Positions 1 to 22,525 of a DNA stretch of 23,647 nt are shown here, one piece after another. Under the pieces are notes generated by a model. It made no database searches. It was not told the origin of the DNA and saw nothing but the letters and a program-made list of their open reading frames with translations. Position 1 is the stretch's first letter. Every line of letters starts with the position of its first letter. Made by a program: the position numbers and the translations under genes. This DNA comes from Linderina pennispora (taxonomy: Eukaryota > Kickxellomycota > Kickxellomycetes > Kickxellales > Kickxellaceae). The stretch is from positions 1 to 23,647 of the forward strand of contig NW_024468409.1 in the NCBI RefSeq assembly GCF_002104995.1. The letters are read 5' to 3'.

Positions 1-455
1 ATGGGCGAGGATCCGAAGCAGATCCCGAACAACCTGATGCCGTATGTGTCGCAGGTGGCCGTGGGCAAGCTGAAGGAGGTGCATGTGTTTGGCACCGACT
101 ACAACACGCGCGACGGCACGGGCGTGCGCGACTACATCCACGTGATGGACCTCGCCGAGGCCCACGTTGCAGCACTCAAGCGCCTGCCGGATAACCACGG
201 CTACGAGGTGTTCAATCTAGGCTCAGGCACCGGCCAGTCTGTGCTCGAGATGATCGACGCCATGTCGGTTGCGTGTGGACACAAGATCCCGTACGTCAAC
301 GACCCGCGCCGTCCTGGCGATGTCGCCACGGTTATCTGCAACCCGGACAAGGCTGCCGGCGAGCTGGCTTCAAGGTCAGCCGCGACCTCAAGTCGATGTG
401 CGAGGACCTGTGGCGCTGGCAGGAAAACAACCCGAACGGCTTCACCCAGGAGTAA
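1..455 (+). CDS. GAL10: UDP-glucose 4-epimerase, C-terminal part (5' end outside the window)
   Basis: Interconverts UDP-glucose and UDP-galactose in the Leloir pathway, in the cytosol. The visible part is the substrate-binding half of an extended short-chain dehydrogenase/reductase. It opens with [20 protein letters not shown], then [19 protein letters not shown] (the RDGTxxRDYIHV epimerase signature), [11 protein letters not shown], and a C-terminus ending in [13 protein letters not shown], all matching the epimerase domain of yeast Gal10. The NAD-binding Rossmann half and the catalytic YxxxK lie upstream of base 1. The frame is broken near 366-367: one base is missing between GELG and FKVSRDL, and reading resumes in frame 3 to a TAA at 453-455. 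No mutarotase domain follows, so this is a stand-alone epimerase, unlike the fused S. cerevisiae Gal10. The identification is secure; the break is probably a sequencing error. Confidence 0.93.
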
Positions 456-596
456 AAAGCCTTCAGCATGTCAGTACATAAATGTGTTTCAGCCCATTAT
501 CAGCGCGATTTCTGGACCGTGCATGAATCCAGGCATTGGCGGCCCGCCGAATGATGGTCCGCCACGAACTCTCCTTTGTTGTTTTATAGCCAGCGC

Positions 597-1045
597 ATGG
601 ACGCCTTTACACAGATCTCACGCAACCTTGACCTGAGCCAGCTCCTGCTGGTGCATACTGGCCTTGCGCTCGTCAGCGCCCTGGGCACCGCACCCACCTA
701 CAATCTGCCTGTGGCCCTGTTCGGTCTATTGGTTCTGCGTGGCGAATTCGACGGTGTGCAAATGAAGCGGCTTGCTGTCATCCTAGCTGCTACAGGGGTC
801 CTCGACGTGCTGTGGGATTCTGGCGAGGGGTTCGCCTCAACTTTACGCTGCTATTCGTACTGGCCAAATCTGCTGGTTAAGCCCCTGTCGGTTTGCCTGT
901 GCCGTGGCAGTCGCTGCAGAACAGCGGGGCGGGGATCCCGGGCCTGTCGTTCCGGAGCGACGCCTATGAGGCCATGGGCGGCGAGGATGAAGACCATCCA
1001 GATGCCGCCGTCATCAGCATGCCCCGTGCGCTGAACAGCCCATAG
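597..1045 (+). CDS. AGTRAP-like small multi-pass membrane protein (frame broken)
   Basis: A small membrane protein of about 150 residues that resembles type-1 angiotensin II receptor-associated proteins (AGTRAP). The start at 597 gives [20 protein letters not shown]. Hydrophobic segments follow: one around [15 protein letters not shown], one around [11 protein letters not shown], and one around [15 protein letters not shown]. After a frame change come NFTLLFVLA and then [10 protein letters not shown], which corresponds to the LLLKPLS segment of AGTRAP. The soluble tail, read in frame 2, includes [20 protein letters not shown] and ends at the TAG at 1043-1045. At least three single-base shifts are needed, near 835, 866 and 895; the apparent stop at 878-880 disappears when these are allowed. 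Fungal members of this family have no settled role; the animal protein is a vesicular/ER membrane regulator of a GPCR. The assignment rests on spacing and short motifs recalled from the family, so it is moderate. Confidence 0.55.
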
Positions 1046-1311: not shown

Positions 1312-2025
1312 ATGAACGACTCTATTACATTCTTCATTGCGCTGGCATAATCTTTGTAGTCCTCCGCTGGCTTGCTTGGTAAGTGCGCCCTGGAGGGAAA
1401 TGACAGCAATCGGTGCCCGTGTAGCTAACTGTGTACTGCTACCGTGTAGGCCAGGGTGGTAACGACCAGGGACACGGCGGCGCAGCAGGGCGAGAGCACC
1501 GGCGACTGGCACATCGTACGACCGGAGCACGTACAGACAATCCAGGCCATGTTCCCCGATATCCCCGAAGCTTGCCATCCGTCTGGACCTGTCTCGGACG
1601 GGCTCACCGGTAATCACCAGTGACAACATTCTGCGCAACGGCGGAACGCTGCCTATGCCGCCCGAGGCGCGACAACCGCAAGCGAGGCCGGTGATGATTG
1701 GTGAGACTACAGTGACTCTAAACTCGGGCACCGGCCAGCGACGGACAGCGGAATCGGGTGGCACATCGTCGGGCGTCCAGCTTAATGCGGCTCAGTCGCC
1801 GTTGGTCAGCCGGTTGAGGATCTCAAAGGACGCGGATGCAGAGCCCCTGCCGCCCCAGCCACCGAAGGTATGGGAAACAGATGCGGGCAAGCGCGCCGAG
1901 GTGCTGATGAAGCGCAAAGGAGTTTTATGCTGATGGAGGCCCGCAAAAAGTTCCTCGACAAGAAAAAGCAGAGCAAAGCGGCCGAGAAGGCACCAGCTGC
2001 GACAGCCTCGACGACTGCCGAGTAG
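1312..2025 (+). CDS. CUE-domain protein of the ER membrane (Cue1/Cue4-like)
   Basis: CUE domains bind ubiquitin; the Cue1 type anchors and activates the E2 enzyme Ubc7 at the ER for ER-associated degradation. Exon 1 (1312-1378) encodes MNDSITFFI followed by a membrane segment AGIIFVVLRWLAW. An intron at 1379-1454 has a GTAAGT donor, a GCTAAC branch site and a CAG acceptor, and keeps phase. Exon 2 contains the CUE domain: VQTIQAMFPDIPE, then AIRLDLSRTGSPVITSDNIL, with the MFP and DL...TGS hallmarks. A low-complexity linker follows, then a basic tail, EARKKFLDKKKQSKAAEKAP, ending at TAG 2023-2025. Frame breaks lie near 1340 (one base missing), 1572 (one extra T) and in the T-run near 1925. One N-terminal membrane helix plus a CUE domain matches Cue1/Cue4 architecture. 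Which of the two it is, and whether it binds Ubc7, cannot be told from sequence alone. Confidence 0.72.
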
Positions 2026-5903: not shown

Positions 5904-7952
5904 TTACAAGAATTTTGAACAGTTGAGGCAGTTGGCTGCACAGATTCGGTACTTGAAGGCCTGCTGCGGCGACGCGGTCTCCAGCTGCGCATATTCCTTC
6001 TTCAGGTTCTCAAGCCGAGATGGGTCAACCACATAGTGCGACGCAACGCGCTCGGCGAACTGGTACACAAAATACACTGCGCTTTCCTTGTTCTGGATCG
6101 GCACACGACCGGCATCGGCGGTCGCATAGCCTGCACTTGCGCGGTGAGCCAGCATCGTGTTGCTGTATTCTGCTGCCAGAACACCCTCAAACTCGGTCAG
6201 CAGCACAATGGCCTGCTCGTGTGCGGTATGGCGGACCTGGCCCACCGCATCCAGCAGATTCAGCAGAGGGATGTCAATACTATCAATATTCTTCTGCTGA
6301 GTCTGCTGGTCAAGGCAGTTTGCAATCGTGTTCAGCAGCGTAGCCGACACACCCTTGTTGCTGCAGATTGACGACACAAGGCTTTGAATGAATGCGTCTA
6401 TTTCAAACGCAGGTATCTCGTTTTCCACGGGAATGGCCGCCTGCGGTGGATTAGCCCCAGACGCGCGGCCCTCGCAGCTGCCTGCTTCGAGCGGGTCCTT
6501 GATCGTGCCTTCGGGCAGCCCCAGAAACTCGGGCAGCCCCTTGCCGATATAGGGTAGCCACACATTAAGCATGCCAAGATCACCAGCAGCCACGCGCTTC
6601 AGCAGGTACGCATACAGAACCTGGCGGGCCAGCTCGCTGGAATTCAGAACAATCACATCGTCTTGACTAGGCCGCAGCCCACTCTCCTCGGTAACTGCCA
6701 CCACCGCAGTGCCGCTCCTGCCGCTATACGCACCCGCTGAATCGCGGCGCGCCCTCTTGACTCCACTGCCATAGGCATCGTCGTCGTGGACACCGACAGC
6801 ACGGTCAAATTTGATCGATTCCTTGATGAACGATATCAGCGACGGGTAGAACTTGCCTCGAACATTGCGGTTAATGGCCGGGATCTTTGGCCTGTCCTGC
6901 ACCAGCAGGCTTCCGGCCGAGAGCCCAATGGTCAGTATCAGGCTAGGCCATGTAAGGTCACGGTACTTTGAGCTGGCTTCAGAATTCGGTGCAATGTCCT
7001 CTAGAATGTTCAGCACGCACTGCGCCAGTATGTGCCGCGAGTACGGGCTGCTTAAAATGAGCGAAATTTCGCCATATGGTGGGTCAGTCGGGTCGAGGTT
7101 GTCAAAGTACCTCTGCAGCTCTAGCACGCGTCGCGGGTCCATCGTCTGCCGCATGATACACGCATCCAGCGACCACGCCAGCCCATGGCACACGTCACTC
7201 TCGATGATGACCGACACGTCAGAGTCGTGCATCACCATCGCCAGGTCCAGCCGCAGCGTGCCCAGAGCCGGATCCTGCGTCTTGATAAACAGCTCGCGGA
7301 TCATTCCCAGCGTTGCATTGTACAGATGCAGGTCCGTGTTGATTGCATGCGAAATCTCGAGAAGCACCGGGTGCTGACGCCGTTTGCGCGAGTACTCCTG
7401 CACCTTGATTCCGTATATCTCTTGCGACATTGAGCGCAGCTGCGCGTCTGCGACATACTTTGCCAGCAGCGGCCGGATATGCTGCTGGAACAGTGGTAGG
7501 TCCTTGCGCCACAGCGTGCGCCTCACATCCAAGCTACACGCTTCGTACAGCTGCATGCTGCCACGGATTGCTTCACGGTAGTCATCAGGCACATTATCCG
7601 GCCACTTTGCCAGCAGCATCAGCGGGATTTTCTGCAGCTGTGGCACTGCAAAGTACCGCTTCACCTTGGCCAGCAATGCCAGGTGCTGGTCTAGTGGCAG
7701 TCGCTCGCCCTGTATGCGGCTCATTGCCGCACACACTACAGAGTCAAGTACTGCTGTGTGGATGTCGCGGCGCTTGTGGCCCAGTGAATCCAGCAAGCCG
7801 TAGATTGACTCGCTGGCTGGGATGTCCAGGCCGTTGTCGTTGCCAAAATCAAGTATCACCTGCTTGGGCTTGCCCAGGCTCATCATGCGCTTAATCTGCT
7901 CACGGCCCTCAGCGCCCACCAGATATGTTTTGTCGCCGCCTGTGTTTCCCAT
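5904..7952 (-). CDS. NELFB: Negative elongation factor subunit B (NELF-B/COBRA1) homologue
   Basis: NELF-B is a scaffold subunit of the negative elongation factor, which with DSIF holds RNA polymerase II in promoter-proximal pausing. A single uninterrupted frame gives 682 residues from the ATG at 7952, slightly longer than the animal protein (about 580). I chose this start because it follows a TATACATACTATAG stretch and the upstream in-frame sequence looks non-coding. Family-specific segments are LYEACSLDVRRTLWRKDLPL (residues 135-154), PLLAKYV, LYNATLGMIRELFIKTQ (about 210-226), TLRLDLAMVMHDSDV, and CHGLAWSLDACI (about 255-266), matching the CHKFTWCLDACI region of animal NELF-B; then ELQRYFDNLDP and GEISLILSSPYSRHILA. 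A basic, Ser-rich insert near VKRARRDSAGAYSGRSG (about residues 440-475) is not in animals. No frame breaks are seen. S. cerevisiae and S. pombe lack NELF, so a fungal copy is notable. Confidence 0.88.
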   Translation of the reverse strand: MGNTGGDKTYLVGAEGREQIKRMMSLGKPKQVILDFGNDNGLDIPASESIYGLLDSLGHKRRDIHTAVLDSVVCAAMSRIQGERLPLDQHLALLAKVKRYFAVPQLQKIPLMLLAKWPDNVPDDYREAIRGSMQLYEACSLDVRRTLWRKDLPLFQQHIRPLLAKYVADAQLRSMSQEIYGIKVQEYSRKRRQHPVLLEISHAINTDLHLYNATLGMIRELFIKTQDPALGTLRLDLAMVMHDSDVSVIIESDVCHGLAWSLDACIMRQTMDPRRVLELQRYFDNLDPTDPPYGEISLILSSPYSRHILAQCVLNILEDIAPNSEASSKYRDLTWPSLILTIGLSAGSLLVQDRPKIPAINRNVRGKFYPSLISFIKESIKFDRAVGVHDDDAYGSGVKRARRDSAGAYSGRSGTAVVAVTEESGLRPSQDDVIVLNSSELARQVLYAYLLKRVAAGDLGMLNVWLPYIGKGLPEFLGLPEGTIKDPLEAGSCEGRASGANPPQAAIPVENEIPAFEIDAFIQSLVSSICSNKGVSATLLNTIANCLDQQTQQKNIDSIDIPLLNLLDAVGQVRHTAHEQAIVLLTEFEGVLAAEYSNTMLAHRASAGYATADAGRVPIQNKESAVYFVYQFAERVASHYVVDPSRLENLKKEYAQLETASPQQAFKYRICAANCLNCSKFL

Positions 7953-8813
7953 CGTGCTATAGTATGTATAAAAAAGGCTTTGGTTGCAAGAGCTGCAGAG
8001 ACAAGAGGTGAGTCTGTTTATGGCTCGCACAGTGCGCCAGCTGGTGACCTCGCCACCCAGAGCGAAAAACAAGAGCGCCGATCACCGATCAAATCTTACA
8101 ATCAAATGATTTAGCTCGGGATTGCCGAACTCCGCAAGTGCCAGCGGTGTCTCGATCACGTCACGTCGGGTGCACTTCAGTGCGAACGCACTCGTCCCCA
8201 AGCCCCGTCCATGGCTTGACTGCCGATCCCTCCACCTTCTCCGGGGATTGGATTCATGCTTATCAACGGAGTGGCGGCCAAGTGCCTCGTCCGCCGCTAG
8301 GAGCGGGATGCGCAACAATGCACAGGCAAAATATTCCTACATCCCAATTTCTACACATCTGCACCTGCGCAACTCCGTGTATATCCCTTCGTTCTCCTGC
8401 GCAGGCAGCCCGATATCCCCCTGCCACCACCTGATGCCAGGCACAGCCTGGCTCCAGCAGTTGGCTTCAGTAGCGACTGCTGTTGCCAGCAGCCCACTCG
8501 GACTCACGCGCCCTCGATCCCCCACCGCCTGCCTGCATCTCTGCCCCGTCGGATGTTGGGGAACAGAATTCCACTGGAATGAACCGTGTAGCCCTAGCCA
8601 TTCGAATTGGGCCCTCGGAGGGAGCCTGTGGTTTCCATTTGCACCTCAGCCTGAGCTATGTGGATGATCACTGACGAGAAAGATATTTCGCCGCTAGTCA
8701 GCGACCCCGCACCACCCCCACCTTGGCCAAAGTTGGCCCATTCCGAGATGGGCCAGGAAATCCTGCTGGATACACAGGGGTTGCAGCTGGCCAATAGACT
8801 TTCCGGATGAGGC

Positions 8814-13918: not shown

Positions 13919-14268
13919 TAATAATTGGAGTGTAAAAGGATTGCAAATGGTAAAAAGGTGGACTATCGCTAGGAGAAGAAAGAAGCCGAGAACACAGACC
14001 CACACTGCATATCTGCGTCATCAGCCGAGGGAAGCAGGGAAGGGGAGTGTGGCTCAGCCTGGTTTGGGAGCTTTTGGAACACGTGAACCACAGAAGTACC
14101 TTCAGGCCAGCAGTGTTGTGGTGAAAAAGCTATGTTTTTAAGGGGTTCGCTGAAGAGAGAATATGAAAATACGCTAGGGATAAAATGACATAAAGTGCAA
14201 CTAAAGGACGCCAGGTCTCGCTCAGGACAGGGGCCCAGGCAGGGAGAACAACACGGAGGAAAATGCTG
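13919..14268. other. Intergenic region upstream of the RasGEF gene
   Basis: About 350 bases between the start of the RasGEF gene and the stop of the repeat-protein gene, both on minus. It should contain the RasGEF promoter and the 3' untranslated region of the repeat gene. I see no RNA gene, repeat or coding sequence here. Confidence 0.4.
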
Positions 14269-16829
14269 TCATTCTGAAGAGCAGCCGTAGGGGTAGGGCC
14301 ACCCTGGCACAGTGGCCGTCGGGGTGGAACGAGCGGCGTTGACGCCGAAAGCTGACATCGGGATGAAGACAGCAACCTGCGACTCGTTGATATGCTCAGT
14401 GAACACACCCTGCTTCGGGGCATTGTCACGCTTGAGAAGGTTGCCCGAGTCATCGCCAGAGTCGAGAATGTGAGCAGTGACGGTCGGTGACGCCTGGATG
14501 GTAAGCACTGACATCACCCAGAAGGTTGGGGACAAGGCCGTTGCCGTCATCAGTCGTGCTGGATGTTGGCAACAATGTTGATAGGAGCAACAGCGCTGGC
14601 AATAACCTCGCCAAGAAGGTTAGGAACAAGGTCGCGCTTGAGAGGAGCGCTGCTCACAGCCTCCTGGTCAGGATCAAAGATGTGCACAGTGACAGTAGGG
14701 TGAGCCTGGACGGTAGCGCTGATTGCACCAATAAGGTTCGGGACAAGACCATTGCCATCCTCATCCGGGTTAATGTTGGCGACGACATCTACAGGAGCGA
14801 ACGGCACTAGCAACAACTTCACCGAGAATGTTTTTCAGCAGGTCGCGCTTGAGCAGGTCACCCGAGTAATCGATCAGCATCAAAGATATGAGCAGTGACA
14901 GTCTGGCGACGCCTGGATGGTGGCACTGACGGCGCCAATGAGGTTAGGGACAAGACCATTGCCATCCTCATCCGGATTAATGTTGGCGACAATGTTGAGC
15001 GGAGCAACAGCGCTGGCAATGACCTCGCCAAGAATGTTGTTCAGCAGATCGCGCTTGAGAAGGTTGCCCGAATCATCGCCAGAGTCGAGAATGTGAGCAG
15101 TGACTGGTCGGCTGACGCCCTGGATGGTAGCACTGACATCACCCAGAAGGTTGGGACAAGACCGTTGCCGTCATCATCGTGTCTGGATGTTGGCAACAAT
15201 GTTGATAGGAGCAACAGCGCTGGCAATAGACCTCAGCCGAGAAGGTTAGGAACAAGGTCGCGCTTGAGTAGGTCACCCGAGTAGTCGTCAGCATCAAAGA
15301 TATGGACAGTGACAGTCGGCGACGCCTGGATAGTAGCACTGACGGCGCCAATGAGGTTAGGGACAAGACCATTGCCATCCTCATCCGGGTTAATGTTGGC
15401 GACAATGTTGAGATGGAGCAACAGCGCTGGCAATGACCTCGCCAAGAATGTTGTTCAGCAGATCGCGCTTGAGAAGGTTGCCCGAATCATCGCCAGAGTC
15501 GAGAATGTGAGCAGTGACTGTTGGCGACGCCCGGATGGTAGCACTGACATCACCAAGGAGGTTAGGAACAAGACCGTTGCCGTCATCGTCGTGCTGGATG
15601 TTGGCAACAATGTTGATAGGAGCAACAGCGCTGGCAATGACCTCACCGAGAAGGTTAGGAACAAGGTCACGCTTGAGCAGGTCACCCGAGTAATCATCAG
15701 CATCAAAGATATGAGCAGTGACAGTCGGTGACGCCTGGATAGTGGCACTGACGGCGCCAATGAGGTTCGGGACAAGACCGTTGCCATCCTCATCCGGATT
15801 AATGTTGGCGACAATGTTGAGAGGAGCAACAGCGCTGGCAATGACCTCGCCAAGAATGTTGTTCAACAGATCGCGCTTGAGAAGGTTGCCCAGTGCATCA
15901 GCGCCCTGAGGTTGCGATATGCCGACATGGGCATTGGCAGGCAGGATCACACGAGCAAACACCTTCCCGAGCACCTCGTACAGCAGGGCCTCGCTGCCCA
16001 GGTTCTTGGTAGTGGCGTCATCGATCAGGTTGCTCGGAGTGTCGCGCTTGTGCAGCGGCACCGCAGCCTGGCTTGCCTGCGGGATAGAGACGGGCAGGCG
16101 AAGAAGCATGTACGTCTGGCCGTTGATGTTGAACACCATGGCACCGTTGCCATTTACCAAATTGATTGATGGCAGACTGCTCGATGCTGCGCTTATTGAA
16201 CTTACTAGCCTGGTACGACGGAGTGGCAGGGACAGTAGGCGCAGGAGTGGGTACAGGAGTGGGCGCAGGTGGAGCACCTAGGTACAACCTCGGTGACGGC
16301 AGGAGGGGCACTAGGCACGACTTCGGTGACAGCAGGAGGAGCACTAGGCACAACTTCAGGTAACGGCAGGAGGGGCACTAGGCACAACTTCAGGTGACTG
16401 AAGGCTGAGGGGGCTGCGGGAGGATCACAGTAACGCTGGGCTGGGCCTGGCTGAGGCACAATGACTGTGACACCGGGCTGGGCCGGCTGCGGGACCACGG
16501 GTGGCGGGCTAGCCACGTAGGCCGGGCCCGGAACAGCCGGGACATCGGTGATGACCGGCATCGGGGTGGGGAGGGCGGGCTGGGAACCAATGCCGCCGCT
16601 GGTAGGCGAGTACATGAAGTCAGCAACAATAATCGAGATTTGGTTCATTGGAACCGACTGGATGATCGTGACAACAGCGGGTGGCTGGGGGGCTGGCTGG
16701 ATAACGGTTACCACAGCAGGCGGCTGGGGAGCTGGAATGGCCGGAGGACTGCTAGCCACGTAGTTGCCGCCAGCAGCAGCAGTGGCAGCAGGCGAAAGCC
16801 AGGGCGAAGATGGTGTTAGTAACCTTCAT
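14269..16829 (-). CDS. Secreted Kex2-processed tandem-repeat precursor protein
   Basis: I know no named family for this protein. The ATG at 16829 encodes MKVTNTIFALAFA then an Ala-rich stretch, a clear signal peptide once one extra base near 16788 is discounted. Next is a Pro/Val-rich segment (AIPAPQPPAVVTVIQPAPQ, QPGVTVIVPQ) with an 11-residue repeat EVVPSAPPAVT. A first dibasic site, KFNKR/S, lies at about 16189-16194; another, HKR/D, is at 16044-16049. Seven units of about 68 residues follow, each starting KRD, with type A (KRDLLNNILGEVIASAVAP, then INPDEDGNG, ending DADDYSGDLL) and type B (KRDLVPNLLGEVIASAVAP, then IQHDDDGNG, ending DSGDDSGNLL). The end is KRDNAPKQGVFTEHINESQV and a tail finishing YPYGCSSE, TGA at 14269-14271. 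Kex2 cuts after KR in the Golgi, so secretion of separate peptides is expected. Several frame breaks fall in the proximal Pro-rich region and in the distal units. Confidence 0.72.
14428..15878 (-). repeat. Seven tandem 204-base coding units bounded by Lys-Arg-Asp (A-B-A-B-A-A'-B)
   Basis: Lys-Arg codon pairs lie at 15873-15878, 15669-15674, 15465-15470, 15260-15265, 15051-15056, 14845-14850, 14634-14639 and 14428-14433. Spacings are 204, 204, 205, 209, 206, 211 and 206 bases. The first two units are exact 68-codon repeats; the sixth (A') is truly 70 codons and diverged (LLKNILGEVV..., ends DPDQEAVSSAPL); the other excesses are indels. Units alternate between types A and B, so the duplication step was probably a 408-base AB pair. 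Within each unit LVPNLLGEVIASAVAP and LVPNLLGDVSATIRASP are related, showing an older 34-residue duplication. Confidence 0.85.
16283..16398 (-). repeat. 33-base tandem repeat encoding EVVPSAPPAVT
   Basis: Three full copies and a partial fourth of a 33-base unit in the Pro-rich part of the repeat precursor. On minus each encodes EVVPSAPPAVT. One extra T at a unit junction throws the first copy out of frame with the next. Pro/Val/Ala-rich repeats of this kind are typical of extended wall or linker segments in secreted fungal proteins. Confidence 0.7.
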
Positions 16830-17666: not shown

Positions 17667-18951
17667 TCACAGAGCTAGCCAGTCCTTGGTGCAGGAATCG
17701 CTGTTAAAGAGCATGGAGCGGTTGGCGCTGCAGAAGCAGTACTGGGCGTTGTAGGTTGGGTCGGTAGGGCAGTTCTGGAATGGGTTGTGGTAGTATCCGA
17801 TATCGCCAAAATAGTGTACCTGGGACTTGTTCAGGAACATAGCTACGGCCATGGTGTGCACGGGTGCGTCTCCCCAGCGCTCCATGAAGAAGCCGCCCGC
17901 GCGATCCAAAAAGTTGAAATATGCCATGTACTTTTCCGAGCGCAAAAACTCGAGGCTCCCGATCTCAAAGTTTGACCAGAAATGGCACATGTTGTAGTCG
18001 CCCGAGTCGTTGGTCAGCCAGGACAGGGTGTTGTTGGGCGAGACGTACTCGGGATATGCGGCGCGGAATGCGTTGGTTGTGCTCCACAGGGACCTTACGG
18101 TTATCGGAAACTCGCGCAAGGTGATGGTGAACCCGTACAGCTTGTTGTTGTCGGCCATGTATTTGAAGGGGTCGTAGGGAATGGCGCAGCTGAACTCGAC
18201 GCCAGGCTCGACTCGCCAGTACCAGTCGAACTGGTCCAGCAGCGGGTGGCGGAAGAAGAAGCCTGATTCGAACCTATTCTCCGAGCAAACAAAAACGCCA
18301 GGACAAGTGGTTAGCACATGACAGCTTGAACAACCGGGATTTGCGAGTTTGCATGCATGCCAGATACCAATTAGTGCACCAGTGCAATATACACGTGCAT
18401 AGGATGTTCAGGCAGATGCCGGCAATTTGTTTTCTTTTTGTTTTGAGCGATTTATACCTGCACATTTTGCGGTAGCTTTCGCTGTCTCCATATGGCACCC
18501 GGTTCCCCATCTTGCGCATCTCCCAGCGAGCCCTGACCCGATCGATCCACGGCGGGATCGACCAGTGCTCGTAGGGCACCAGGCCAAAGTGGCAGTCGCC
18601 TGACGTCGCCCATTCCATGTTCTGCTTGAACTCGTCCGTGAACGGCTCGTCGTTCAGAAACACATATGGGTAGCGATACCTGTGGTTGAACTGATCCTCG
18701 AGCTGGCGCACGGTGGCACGCAGGTCGTGGAGCTCAGAGTTGCGTGCCAGGATCACGAATGCGGCGCGCACAGGGTGGTTAATGCGGGCATTCTCGGGCT
18801 TCAGGCGCACATCCTCATGCTGTTTTGGATGGGTGAGGGCGCGGGCCTGTTCGATCGGCGATGGGCATGCTATAAAGAGGATCAGCGCACAGAGCCCGAC
18901 GACCAGGAGAAACCACCGGGACAGCGTGACGGCCTTGACTGACGGCTGCAT
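17667..18951 (-). CDS. GT15 alpha-1,2-mannosyltransferase (Kre2/Mnt1/Ktr family)
   Basis: Golgi type II membrane enzyme that adds alpha-1,2-mannose from GDP-mannose to O- and N-linked glycans of secreted and wall proteins. Exon 1 (18951-18458) starts MQPSVKAVTLSRWFLLVVGL, a short cytosolic tail and one membrane anchor (about residues 12-30). It continues with AAFVILARNSELHDLRATVR, QLEDQFNHRYRYPYVFLNDE and FGLVPYEHWSIPPWID, all family hallmarks. The intron at 18274-18457 (GTATAA donor, GTGCTAACC branch, TAG acceptor) joins KMC-R to FESGFFFRHPLL. Exon 2 (18273-17667) has YWRVEPGVEFSCAIPYDPF, YNMCHFWSNFEIGSLEFLRS and GGFFMERWGDAPVHTMAVA, the catalytic-core segments of GT15, and ends CTKDWLAL. 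Total 366 residues, near Kre2 length, with no frame breaks. Which Kre2/Ktr paralogue it represents cannot be decided here. It could mannosylate the adjacent secreted precursor, but that is only suggested by proximity. Confidence 0.95.
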
Positions 18952-19282
18952 CTGGCGAGCGAAAAGAGCAAAAAGGACGGAGGAGGAAAATAGCAATTTG
19001 GAACACTCTGCTGGATTGTCGCACCGGCAAATTTGCTCCGTAAATGGGATAGGGCCATGGGACGAGAGTGGGTTGTGTGTGCACGTGAGATGCCACACCT
19101 CCAATGTGAAACAATGGGGCCAAGGCGACGTACAAAAACAACGCTGCTGGCAGCTGCTGTTTGCTGAGGCGGTAGTACTTTCTCCTCCCTTTCTCTCTCC
19201 CTCCCTCTACTTTCCACCTACTAGCACACATCCACCAAAAAAGTTTGTATTTTTTGTCACTCTTGCACCACCAAAAAAAAGC
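18952..19282. promoter_or_regulatory. Divergent promoter between GT15 and the small Ser/Pro-rich gene
   Basis: 331 bases between two divergent start codons. A palindromic CACGTG E-box lies at 19083-19088, roughly central. The right side is pyrimidine-rich (TCCTCCCTTTCTCTCTCC region, about 19180-19210), a common fungal promoter/leader feature. No TATA box is obvious. Which gene the E-box serves cannot be told. Confidence 0.35.
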
Positions 19283-20471: not shown

Positions 20472-20563
20472 TCACTCCAGCTGCGCGGGCATTTTACACG
20501 ATCCAACTTTCTCCAATGGCACTGAGGCTTTTGTGGGGGGACCGATTCTCAGCATCTTCTCAG

Positions 20564-20570
20564 TATAAAA
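20564..20570 (+). promoter_or_regulatory. TATA box of the thioredoxin reductase gene
   Basis: TATAAAA about 115 bases before the start codon at 20684, followed by a CT-rich leader. Sequence and distance are those of a TATA-containing, stress-inducible fungal promoter. Confidence 0.6.
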
Positions 20571-20683
20571 CTCTGGCTATGTTTCTCGCAAGCCTCCGTC
20601 GCCCACTACATCTCGCTTTTTCTTCCTCACTCTCCTCTATCTCTCACCATAGACAGTTTCTCTCACACACAGCAATTCTCAAA

Positions 20684-20749
20684 ATGCACGCCAAAGTTGT
20701 AAGTACCCTGCTGAATGACCAAAGGAAGCGGGATTTGCCAGAGATTCGG

Positions 20750-20803
<54 letters not shown>

Positions 20804-21821
20804 CTAATGCAGACATTGTCTCGTTTTCTAGATCATTGTTGGTTCCGGTCCCGCTGGACACACTGCAGCTATCTACGCAGCGCGGGCAAACCTCGAGCCG
20901 GAGATGTTCGAGGGCATGATGGCCGGCGGTGTGGCGCCCGGTGGACAGCTGACGACGACCACGGACGTCGAGAACTTCCCCGGGTTCCCCGCGGGCGTGA
21001 TGGGCGGCGAGCTGACAGACAAGTTCCGCGAGCAGTCGGAGCGGTTCGGCACCAAGATCCACACGGAGACGATCACGCGCGTGGACCTGTCGTCGCGGCC
21101 GTTCAAGCTGTGGCGCGAGTACGCCGACGGCCCCGAGGACAAGCCCGACACGTGCGATGCGCTGATCATTGCCACCGGAGCGACAGCCAAGCGCCTGTTC
21201 ATTGCCGGCGAGGACACGTACTGGCAGCGGGGCATGTCTGCGTGTGCTGTGTGCGACGGCGCTGCGCCGATCTTCCGCAACAAGCCGCTGGTGGTCGTTG
21301 GCGGCGGCGACAGCGCCTGCGAGGAGGCGACGTTCCTGACCAAGTATGCCAGCCATGTCTATCTGGCCTGTGCGTCGCGACGCGCTGGCGTGCCTCTGAT
21401 ATCATGGCCAAGCGGGCCATTGCCAACCCCAAGATCACCGTGCTGTGGAACACCCACGTGACTGAGGCCAAGGGCGACGGCGACCTGCTCAGCCATGTTG
21501 TGCTCAAGGACGCCAAGACCAACGAGACGCGCGAGCTCGAGGTCTCGGGTCTGTTCTATGCCATCGGCCATACCCCCAACACTGCCTTCCTCAGCGGCCA
21601 GCTCGAGACCGACGAGTCCGGCTACCTGCTGGTCCAGCCCGGCACCTCGCTGACCAACATCAAGGGTGTCTTTGCTGCCGGCGACGTCCAGGACAAGCGC
21701 TACCGCCAGGCCATCACTGGCTGCTGGCTCCGGCTGCATGGCTGCTCTCGACGCCGAGAAGTACCTCGAGGAGCTCGAGGCCGAGGAGCGCGAGAAGAAG
21801 GAGAAGGACAAGCAGCAAGCT
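20684..21821 (+). CDS. TRR1: Thioredoxin reductase (NADPH), low-molecular-weight type
   Basis: FAD enzyme that reduces thioredoxin with NADPH. Exon 1 (20684-20698) encodes only MHAKV. The intron at 20699-20831 (GTAAGT donor, CTAG acceptor) contains a CAG run and joins to [19 protein letters not shown], the FAD-binding GxGxxG. Next come [30 protein letters not shown], the redox-active CxxC in [16 protein letters not shown], the NADPH-binding [51 protein letters not shown] and [20 protein letters not shown]. Two or more frame breaks lie at about 21370-21392 (between ASHVYL and [10 protein letters not shown]), and one extra T near 21722. The end is unsettled: after KEKDKQQA at 21821 a GTAAGC suggests a last intron with a tiny terminal exon, since continued reading to 22202 lacks coding character. 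A TATA box and Yap1-type site lie upstream. Confidence 0.93.
20756..20803 (+). repeat. (CAG)14-CAA-CAG microsatellite inside intron 1 of thioredoxin reductase
   Basis: Fourteen CAG triplets (20756-20797), then CAA and CAG, within the first intron, about 30 bases before the acceptor. The unspliced message is open in this frame and would read as polyglutamine, but the 133-base intron is not a multiple of three, so retention would destroy the FAD-binding frame. Confidence 0.9.
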
Positions 21822-22525
21822 GTAAGCGTCCAGCCGACTTTCTGCGGGCTTTTTTTTTCTAATACATGTCTTCATTTAATCTCGGGAGGAACAGGCCTCC
21901 TGGCCTTGGGGGAAAGTAATAAGCGGGGTGTGGCGATCCGCCGCCTATTGGTAGTGGCGGAAACTGCGAGCTCTAGTCGGCGGGGGCTACTAGCAGACGC
22001 GAGGCAGGGCTCTGCGCTTGCACGCGCTGGCTGTCTCTTCACTGGGCAGTCCTGGCAGCTGCAGTGTGACGACGGCCGAGAGCAGAGTATGCTACAGCCA
22101 GCGCCCAATTCTGCGCTTTCTCCAGGCGCACAGATGCCCTGGCTGCCCCGATGGGCGACAGCTCCGTCGAATCACAGGGCGGTGGGCAGAGGCGCTCCGT
22201 GACTGTTTTTCAAATGCACATGAATGCCTTCTGGCCTGCTCAGCAAGCAGGCGCCCTCAAAGTCACTCGGAGCAAATCCAAACTGCCAGCCCCAAAGCTG
22301 GCCCGCGCCGCACGCCGCCTATTGGGCTCGTCCCAACAATTTTTCCTCGCCCTGGGTTTGTTATCGCTCCATGCAGAGCTGATATCGCGTCCGCCGTATA
22401 AATTGCAAACGGACGCCCGACGGCCGCTCCCCGAGTTTCCTCTTCACCGTTCTTCTTGCATCTTCTTCTCCTCCCCTCCTTTTTACTTTTTTCTCTTAAC
22501 TCCTTAAGGAAAAAAAACACACAGA
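21822..22525. other. Region between thioredoxin reductase and the ADP/ATP carrier
   Basis: About 700 bases. It probably holds a terminal intron or 3' untranslated region of thioredoxin reductase at the left (T-run and CTAATAC near 21850-21866) and the carrier promoter at the right. The plus frame continuing to 22202 shows compositional rather than protein-like sequence. No RNA gene or repeat is seen. Confidence 0.4.
22397..22403 (+). promoter_or_regulatory. TATA box of the ADP/ATP carrier gene
   Basis: TATAAAT about 123 bases before the start codon at 22526, followed by a strongly CT-rich leader (22440-22500). Position and context are nearly the same as for the TATA box of the thioredoxin reductase gene. 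Confidence 0.55.

Follow-up and report, generated by a model that had tools for sequence, protein, structure and literature searches.

The window analysed here, 23,647 bases long, is the entire contig C70 of the Linderina pennispora assembly (26.2 Mb in 222 contigs). A gene for a putative secreted precursor lies on its minus strand, from 16829 to about 14240, with the layout signal peptide, Pro/Val-rich pro-region, KR, segment N1, KR, segment N2, KR, seven tandem units, KR and C-terminal segment. These are the features for which the sequence-only reading had given a signal peptide, a Pro/Val-rich pro-region, regular KR sites and seven units, and all of them were found, with ten KR sites in context. 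Their coordinates are as follows.

16771..16829 (lower bound approximate), minus strand: signal peptide (M...ATAAA), recognized by eye from a K near the start, a hydrophobic core and an A-x-A end
16195..16770, minus strand: Pro/Val-rich pro-region with short imperfect repeats
16050..16188, minus strand: segment N1, 46 aa in P0015, between KR 16194-16189 and KR 16049-16044, kept in relatives
15879..16043, minus strand: segment N2, 55 aa, its last part similar to the first half-module of the units
15675..15872, minus strand: unit 1, type A, 66 aa, open, after KR 15878-15873
15471..15668, minus strand: unit 2, type B, 66 aa, open, after KR 15674-15669
15266..15464, minus strand: unit 3, type A, frame broken, after KR 15470-15465
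15057..15259, minus strand: unit 4, type B, frame broken, after KR 15265-15260
14851..15050, minus strand: unit 5, type A, frame broken, after KR 15056-15051
14640..14844, minus strand: unit 6, diverged type A, frame broken, after KR 14850-14845
14434..14633, minus strand: unit 7, type B, frame broken, after KR 14639-14634
14241..14427, minus strand: C-terminal segment (NAPKQGVFTEHINESQVAVFIPMSAF...), end provisional, after KR 14433-14428

The repeat array and its second copy

The ten KR sites start at 16194, 16049, 15878, 15674, 15470, 15265, 15056, 14850, 14639 and 14433, and the spacing of the last eight (204, 204, 205, 209, 206, 211 and 206 bases) bounds the seven units. An independent tandem-repeat analysis returned a period of 204 at 75% matches and one of 414 at 86%, the better-matching longer period being in line with two alternating unit types; the tandem array is far beyond chance. 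The seven units are of two types: units 1, 3 and 5 open with DLLNN, units 2, 4 and 7 with DLVPN, and unit 6 with DLLKN. A single frame stays open from end to end in units 1 and 2 alone, the other five being frame-broken. Units 1 and 2 have 51 of 66 residues in common, and their dN/dS of 0.14, from this one pair, supports purifying selection between them. The computed monoisotopic masses are 6709.43 for unit 1 (D...GDLL) and 6665.45 for unit 2 (D...GNLL).

At the 5' end, the start ATG at 16829 is followed by MKVTNTIFALAF, and an extra base near 16790 relative to a second contig, C1, shifts the frame and breaks the signal peptide in the window. The unbroken N-terminus is seen in P0015 (DL89DRAFT_20406), a near-identical L. 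pennispora protein; the signal peptide is intact in P0015 and P0024, and clear by inspection in P0015, P0035, P0054 and others. At the 3' end, a tblastn search with the last 105 aa of P0035 matched 14478-14347 at 48.9% (E 1.5e-11). The gene had been taken to end at 14269, where a stop does stand in one frame; a sequence similar to the last conserved strand of the family (QNDSIFLRVV), however, occupies about 14276-14247 in a different frame, and does so on C1 too.

These frame problems are best read against C1. Window positions 2067-23647 and 869-2100 align with C1 at 98.0% and 97.0%, respectively, the longer alignment having 21,620 columns, 316 mismatches and 93 gap openings; the C1 portion compared was 2441000-2470700, and window positions 1-868 fall outside it. 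From these alignments, C70 is a redundant, error-rich copy of a C1 stretch. Along the precursor gene, C70 and C1 disagree at 27 mismatched positions and at 22 single-base indels, of which 14 add a base to C70 and 8 remove one; the reading frame is broken on both contigs. The breaks that differ between the contigs are most simply consensus errors and, given the 22 indels, most of the frame breaks read as assembly errors. Unit 5 shows an identical net shift in both contigs (206 bases), so that its break is possibly an error common to the two copies or a real frame break in L. pennispora. Long open relatives of the precursor exist. The window sequence was analysed as it stands, free of frame repair, and the segment lengths and masses are those of P0015 and of window units 1 and 2.

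Because C70 is redundant and departs from C1 by single-base indels, the unit number, or the array itself, could also be suspected of being an artefact of assembly. We consider this extremely unlikely: the same seven units occur in the same order on both contigs, as do the ten KR sites, and relatives carry up to 8 near-full units. Within the L. pennispora genome, the precursor query matched only the C1 and C70 copies, that is, one locus, such counts being lower bounds.

Two other window genes look frame-broken, namely a mannosyltransferase spread over two ORFs at 17667-19104 (an intron is alternatively possible) and a thioredoxin-reductase-like gene at 20516-21862. The window also holds a homologue of NELF-B (COBRA1) at 5904-8072 on the minus strand (E 1.2e-45), and a NELF-C/D (TH1) homologue is found elsewhere in the genome (locus L013, E 3.3e-58). 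By similarity, both would be core subunits of the pausing factor, present here in a fungus; according to a preprint, NELF-B and NELF-C/D are widespread but lost in yeasts (PMC11482795).

Relatives and dibasic junctions

Three homology searches returned 34, 65 and 32 proteins, 66 of them different, all from Coemansia, Linderina or Kickxella and none longer than 886 aa; two, P0015 and P0024, are from L. pennispora. The searches yielding 65 and 32 proteins scored only the roughly 8000 candidates that had the most words in common with the query, and distant relatives may therefore be missed. Many of the 66 proteins are partial gene models on short contigs. None of the matches was a hydrophobin, a pheromone, a RiPP precursor or a Ustilago protein, and a plasmid tblastn search gave no match. 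Several candidate assignments were set aside. DUF6383 on a window ORF scored under the Pfam cut-off. DUF1652 (P0035, P0037 and P0045) and DUF3247 (P0035 and P0037) passed the whole-protein cut-off, but no single stretch passed and the stretches span 24 to 35 residues, so we took both for sums of scores from several repeats. P0015 is named "FAS1 domain-containing" in UniRef, a name that its lack of any Pfam family at E <= 0.5 does not bear out.

A CUE-domain gene lies at window positions 1510-1977 on the plus strand, about 12 kb from the precursor and on the opposite strand. In several Coemansia gene models (e.g. P0010, P0018, P0034 and P0040) the precursor is fused to a CUE protein. These are probably gene-model fusions of neighbours, in which case the precursor/CUE pair is linked but rearranged.

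The position of dibasic pairs in the family was scored with a unit profile built from segments cut at such pairs, the pairs themselves being absent from it. Run on the 66 proteins, this profile lacking dibasic columns matched 65 and delimited 164 near-full units; the unit core was defined as the matched unit minus its first 5 and last 14 residues. A dibasic pair was present at all 122 scored unit-to-unit junctions (next profile match within 25 residues), which are not independent, as units within one gene probably co-evolve and the Coemansia strains are related, so that the effective sample is three genera. No pair was present in any of the 164 unit cores, the acidic linker between the half-units included. 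The background K+R content leads one to expect a dibasic pair in about 5% of 20-residue junctions. Over all testable unit ends, 160 of 163 are dibasic (RR 108, KR 48, KK 4); 41 of the 163 have no further profile match within 25 residues and stand outside the count of 122, and 38 of these are dibasic and 3 are not. The three exceptions belong to P0038 and P0043 (both Coemansia), where one unit continues directly into the interior of the next and no dibasic pair marks the junction, and to the C-terminal end of P0055. In some Coemansia the last junction is KK, a poor kexin site.

The best test comes from Kickxella, where the number of consensus residues retained by five compared units is 21-33 out of 58 and where P0054 and P0055 have RR at each within-chain unit boundary; the dibasic pairs thus persist although the unit sequence drifts. 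Both Kickxella alabastrina proteins, P0054 and P0055, lack the conserved C-terminal segment, their chain stopping just past the last unit. As for the protease, a single match to the P-domain typical of kexins was found in the L. pennispora genome; inspected by eye, its neighbourhood holds subtilisin-like fragments and, towards the end, a hydrophobic segment, and we take it to be one predicted kexin-type gene.

Dibasic pairs at 122/122 junctions and in 0/164 cores, their persistence in Kickxella and the presence of a kexin-type gene together argue that the precursor very probably belongs to a known class, the Kex2-processed repeat proteins (KEPs). That cutting does happen at these pairs is, judging from sequence comparison, something we hold with high confidence. 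The earlier proposal of a Kex2-type precursor giving several copies of two related peptides of about 66 residues thus gains support from the junction counts, the diverged Kickxella relatives, the single kexin-type gene and the purifying selection between units 1 and 2.

A wall or matrix protein acting uncut or partly cut would account for the same architecture if the dibasic pairs sat in exposed flexible linkers and processing were incidental or confined to the pro-region. Acidic linkers, Pro-rich regions and extended arrays of repeats are frequent features of wall proteins, and the fused units of P0038 and P0043, together with over-long units of 78 and 88 aa in P0004 and P0023, fit such a protein, although the long and the fused units may be assembly or gene-model effects. 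It is harder to reconcile with dibasic pairs kept at every scored junction while the surrounding linker varies and the Kickxella units drift, or with unit cores devoid of them even in the acidic half-unit linker. We therefore regard an uncut wall protein as unlikely and retain the Kex2-processed reading.

Modules, predicted fold and charge of the units

Internal repetition was assessed on eight units with 2000 shuffles each. The two halves of the unit are alike in the two window units (z 5.3 and 10.2), in one Coemansia unit (z 6.7) and in one L. macrospora unit (z 9.2), a likeness reached by 0/2000 shuffles in each case; among four Kickxella units, one gave z 5.5 (2/2000) and the other three z 3.0, 1.7 and 0.2. 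By these scores the Linderina and Coemansia unit looks like two diverged modules of about 34 residues, a duplication that seems to have faded in Kickxella. Segment N2 of P0015 resembles the first half of the unit (z 5.2 for unit 1, with 0/2000 shuffles, and 4.6) and shows no resemblance to the second half of either of two units (z -0.5 and 1.5). N1 (16050-16188) and the C-terminal segment (14241-14427) each read as a beta-hairpin with a terminal hydrophobic residue and Pro, then a helix-like stretch; from inspection by eye and a low-confidence model of a relative, they may be related modules.

The structural model of a unit contains two beta-hairpins, at residues 10-25 and 40-55, with a mean pLDDT of 65.7 and block confidence of up to 81; the model of the full precursor, at a mean pLDDT of 28.9, is unreliable. 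Each module is accordingly modelled as an amphipathic beta-hairpin, the two being joined by an acidic linker. Across 30 aligned units, hydrophobicity alternation at 180 degrees was reached by 11 and 4 of 2000 column shuffles, and at 100 and 160 degrees it was not above column shuffles (three angles tried); beta-alternation in single sequences at 170 degrees was mixed, with 19 to 1058 of 2000 shuffles reaching it over six stretches. Searched against solved structures, the unit model gave 132 fold matches at E <= 10 and none at E <= 0.001, and the unit profile gave a single match at E 0.58. Pore-protein names among the fold matches (E >= 1.2, probability score <= 0.41) were given no weight.

The linker between the modules follows D-x-D-x-[DN]-G in 95 of the 113 distinct units and in 1/9 Kickxella units; among shuffled sequences, 6 of 2260 do so. 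A published calcium motif, Dx[DN]xDG (PMC3123361), fits 12/113 distinct units, and the acidic position 12 of an EF-hand loop occurs in 0/113, which is why we put calcium binding at the linker forward as a suggestion only.

Every one of the 113 distinct units carries a net negative charge (-4 to -12) and is free of Cys. This bears on the idea that the peptides act on membranes or on other microbes, a defensive role for which amphipathic hairpins, as modelled here, would be suitable, and for which there is precedent in cytolytic KEP products such as candidalysin (PMC9769878). Against it stand the acidic charge and lack of Cys, as well as a core conserved across Coemansia where a fast-changing one might be looked for. 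Typical antimicrobial peptides are cationic, and a defensive role is in our judgement quite improbable.

Known repeat precursors and possible roles

KEPs have been surveyed by Le Marquer 2019 (PMC6339444) and Umemura 2020 (PMC7329392). They are defined by a signal peptide and by tandem repeats, no fewer than three and each 8-100 aa long, that are flanked by KR, KK, RK or RR (PMC7329392). In the L. pennispora precursor, KR sites flank seven units of about 68 aa, and the signal peptide is judged by eye. Since repeat lengths from 3 to 352 aa occur among KEPs (PMC6339444), a 68-aa unit is within the class, although at the long end of repeat length; the present family further differs in the internal duplication of the Linderina/Coemansia unit and in its relatives, those found coming from three Kickxellales genera only. 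The two-module units with an acidic linker in Linderina and Coemansia, and the Cys-free acidic character of the units, are new details. Literature searches on Kickxellales or Zoopagomycota combined with Kex2, secreted or repeat proteins gave no paper whose title and abstract describe the family, and Linderina, Coemansia and names in Kickxell- do not occur in the main texts of PMC6339444 and PMC7329392. One of these two surveys counts 185 KEPs in 16 Zoopagomycota strains, and the family, called undescribed in the sequence-only reading, may therefore already be listed among them.

A close parallel in design is found in Rep1 and Hum3 of Ustilago maydis, which likewise consist of amphipathic repeats bounded by Kex2 sites. 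Rep1 products are 35-53 aa long and form amyloid-like fibrils (PMC4617103), and Hum3 repeats are 31-36 aa; the units here differ in being 66 aa long and acidic, with two modelled hairpins and a DxDx[DN]G linker. Repellents of the Rep1 type are characterized by surface-active fibrils of this amyloid-like kind in the hyphal wall. Precursors of ustiloxin-type cyclic RiPPs share the KEP layout, but the repeat here is far longer. No match to UstYa (PF11807/DUF3328) or to the hydrophobin profile PF01185 was obtained in the L. pennispora genome; as control genomes were equally empty for both profiles, these empty results show nothing. The 113 distinct units are devoid of Cys, in contrast to the eight-cysteine pattern of hydrophobins (PMC6784888). 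According to the same paper, hydrophobins had been described only in Dikarya until its report of them in Caulochytrium and Mortierella (PMC6784888).

Ascomycete alpha-pheromone precursors also repeat their peptides between kexin sites (PMC6339444), and the released peptides could be signals used by Kickxellales, in mating or development for instance. The single locus in the L. pennispora genome, the strong core conservation within Coemansia and a C-terminal segment that starts X-A in 25 of the 39 found, loosely like a Ste13 dipeptide, would agree with this. However, 66 residues are far above the 9-24 of known alpha-pheromones (PMC6339444), and 0/113 distinct units start with X-A or X-P; a signalling role of this kind does not strike us as probable.

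Returning to a Kex2-processed protein, its products could be made and used as follows. The chain would enter the secretory pathway via its signal peptide, a Golgi kexin would cut after the dibasic pairs, and carboxypeptidase trimming would probably strip the KR, giving the pro-region, two N-terminal pieces, a C-terminal piece and seven peptides of about 66 residues, in which the types D-LLNN... and D-LVPN... alternate. Every peptide so freed would be two linked beta-hairpin modules, acidic and Cys-free. Most likely, such peptides would associate with one another to form a beta-sheet coat or matrix outside the hypha or spore, with calcium at the acidic linker as a possible influence on assembly. 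Self-association at the surface is favoured by the many copies, the predicted amphipathic beta structure, the lack of Cys and of cationic charge, and the Rep1 precedent. By analogy with Ustilago Rep1, a structural or surface-coating role is thus plausible, at somewhat less than even odds in our estimate. It sits uneasily with a core conservation within Coemansia that exceeds what a generic coat would seem to need, and a specific partner or signal role is also possible. Taken as a whole, a Kex2-processed repeat protein whose peptides form a surface coat is the best explanation we have, and we put it at about an even chance. A more specific version, in which the coat covers aerial hyphae or sporangiola, is switched or stabilized by calcium at DxDx[DN]G and represents an independently evolved substitute for hydrophobins and repellents in an early-diverging order, is rather unlikely.

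The function of most KEP products is not known (PMC9769878). What distinguishes this single-locus family is that its cut sites outlast the peptide sequence across three genera, which makes processing a strong prediction, for which the two exact masses are given above. If the peptides do coat hyphae, they would illustrate a way for an early-diverging order to build aerial surfaces without typical hydrophobins.
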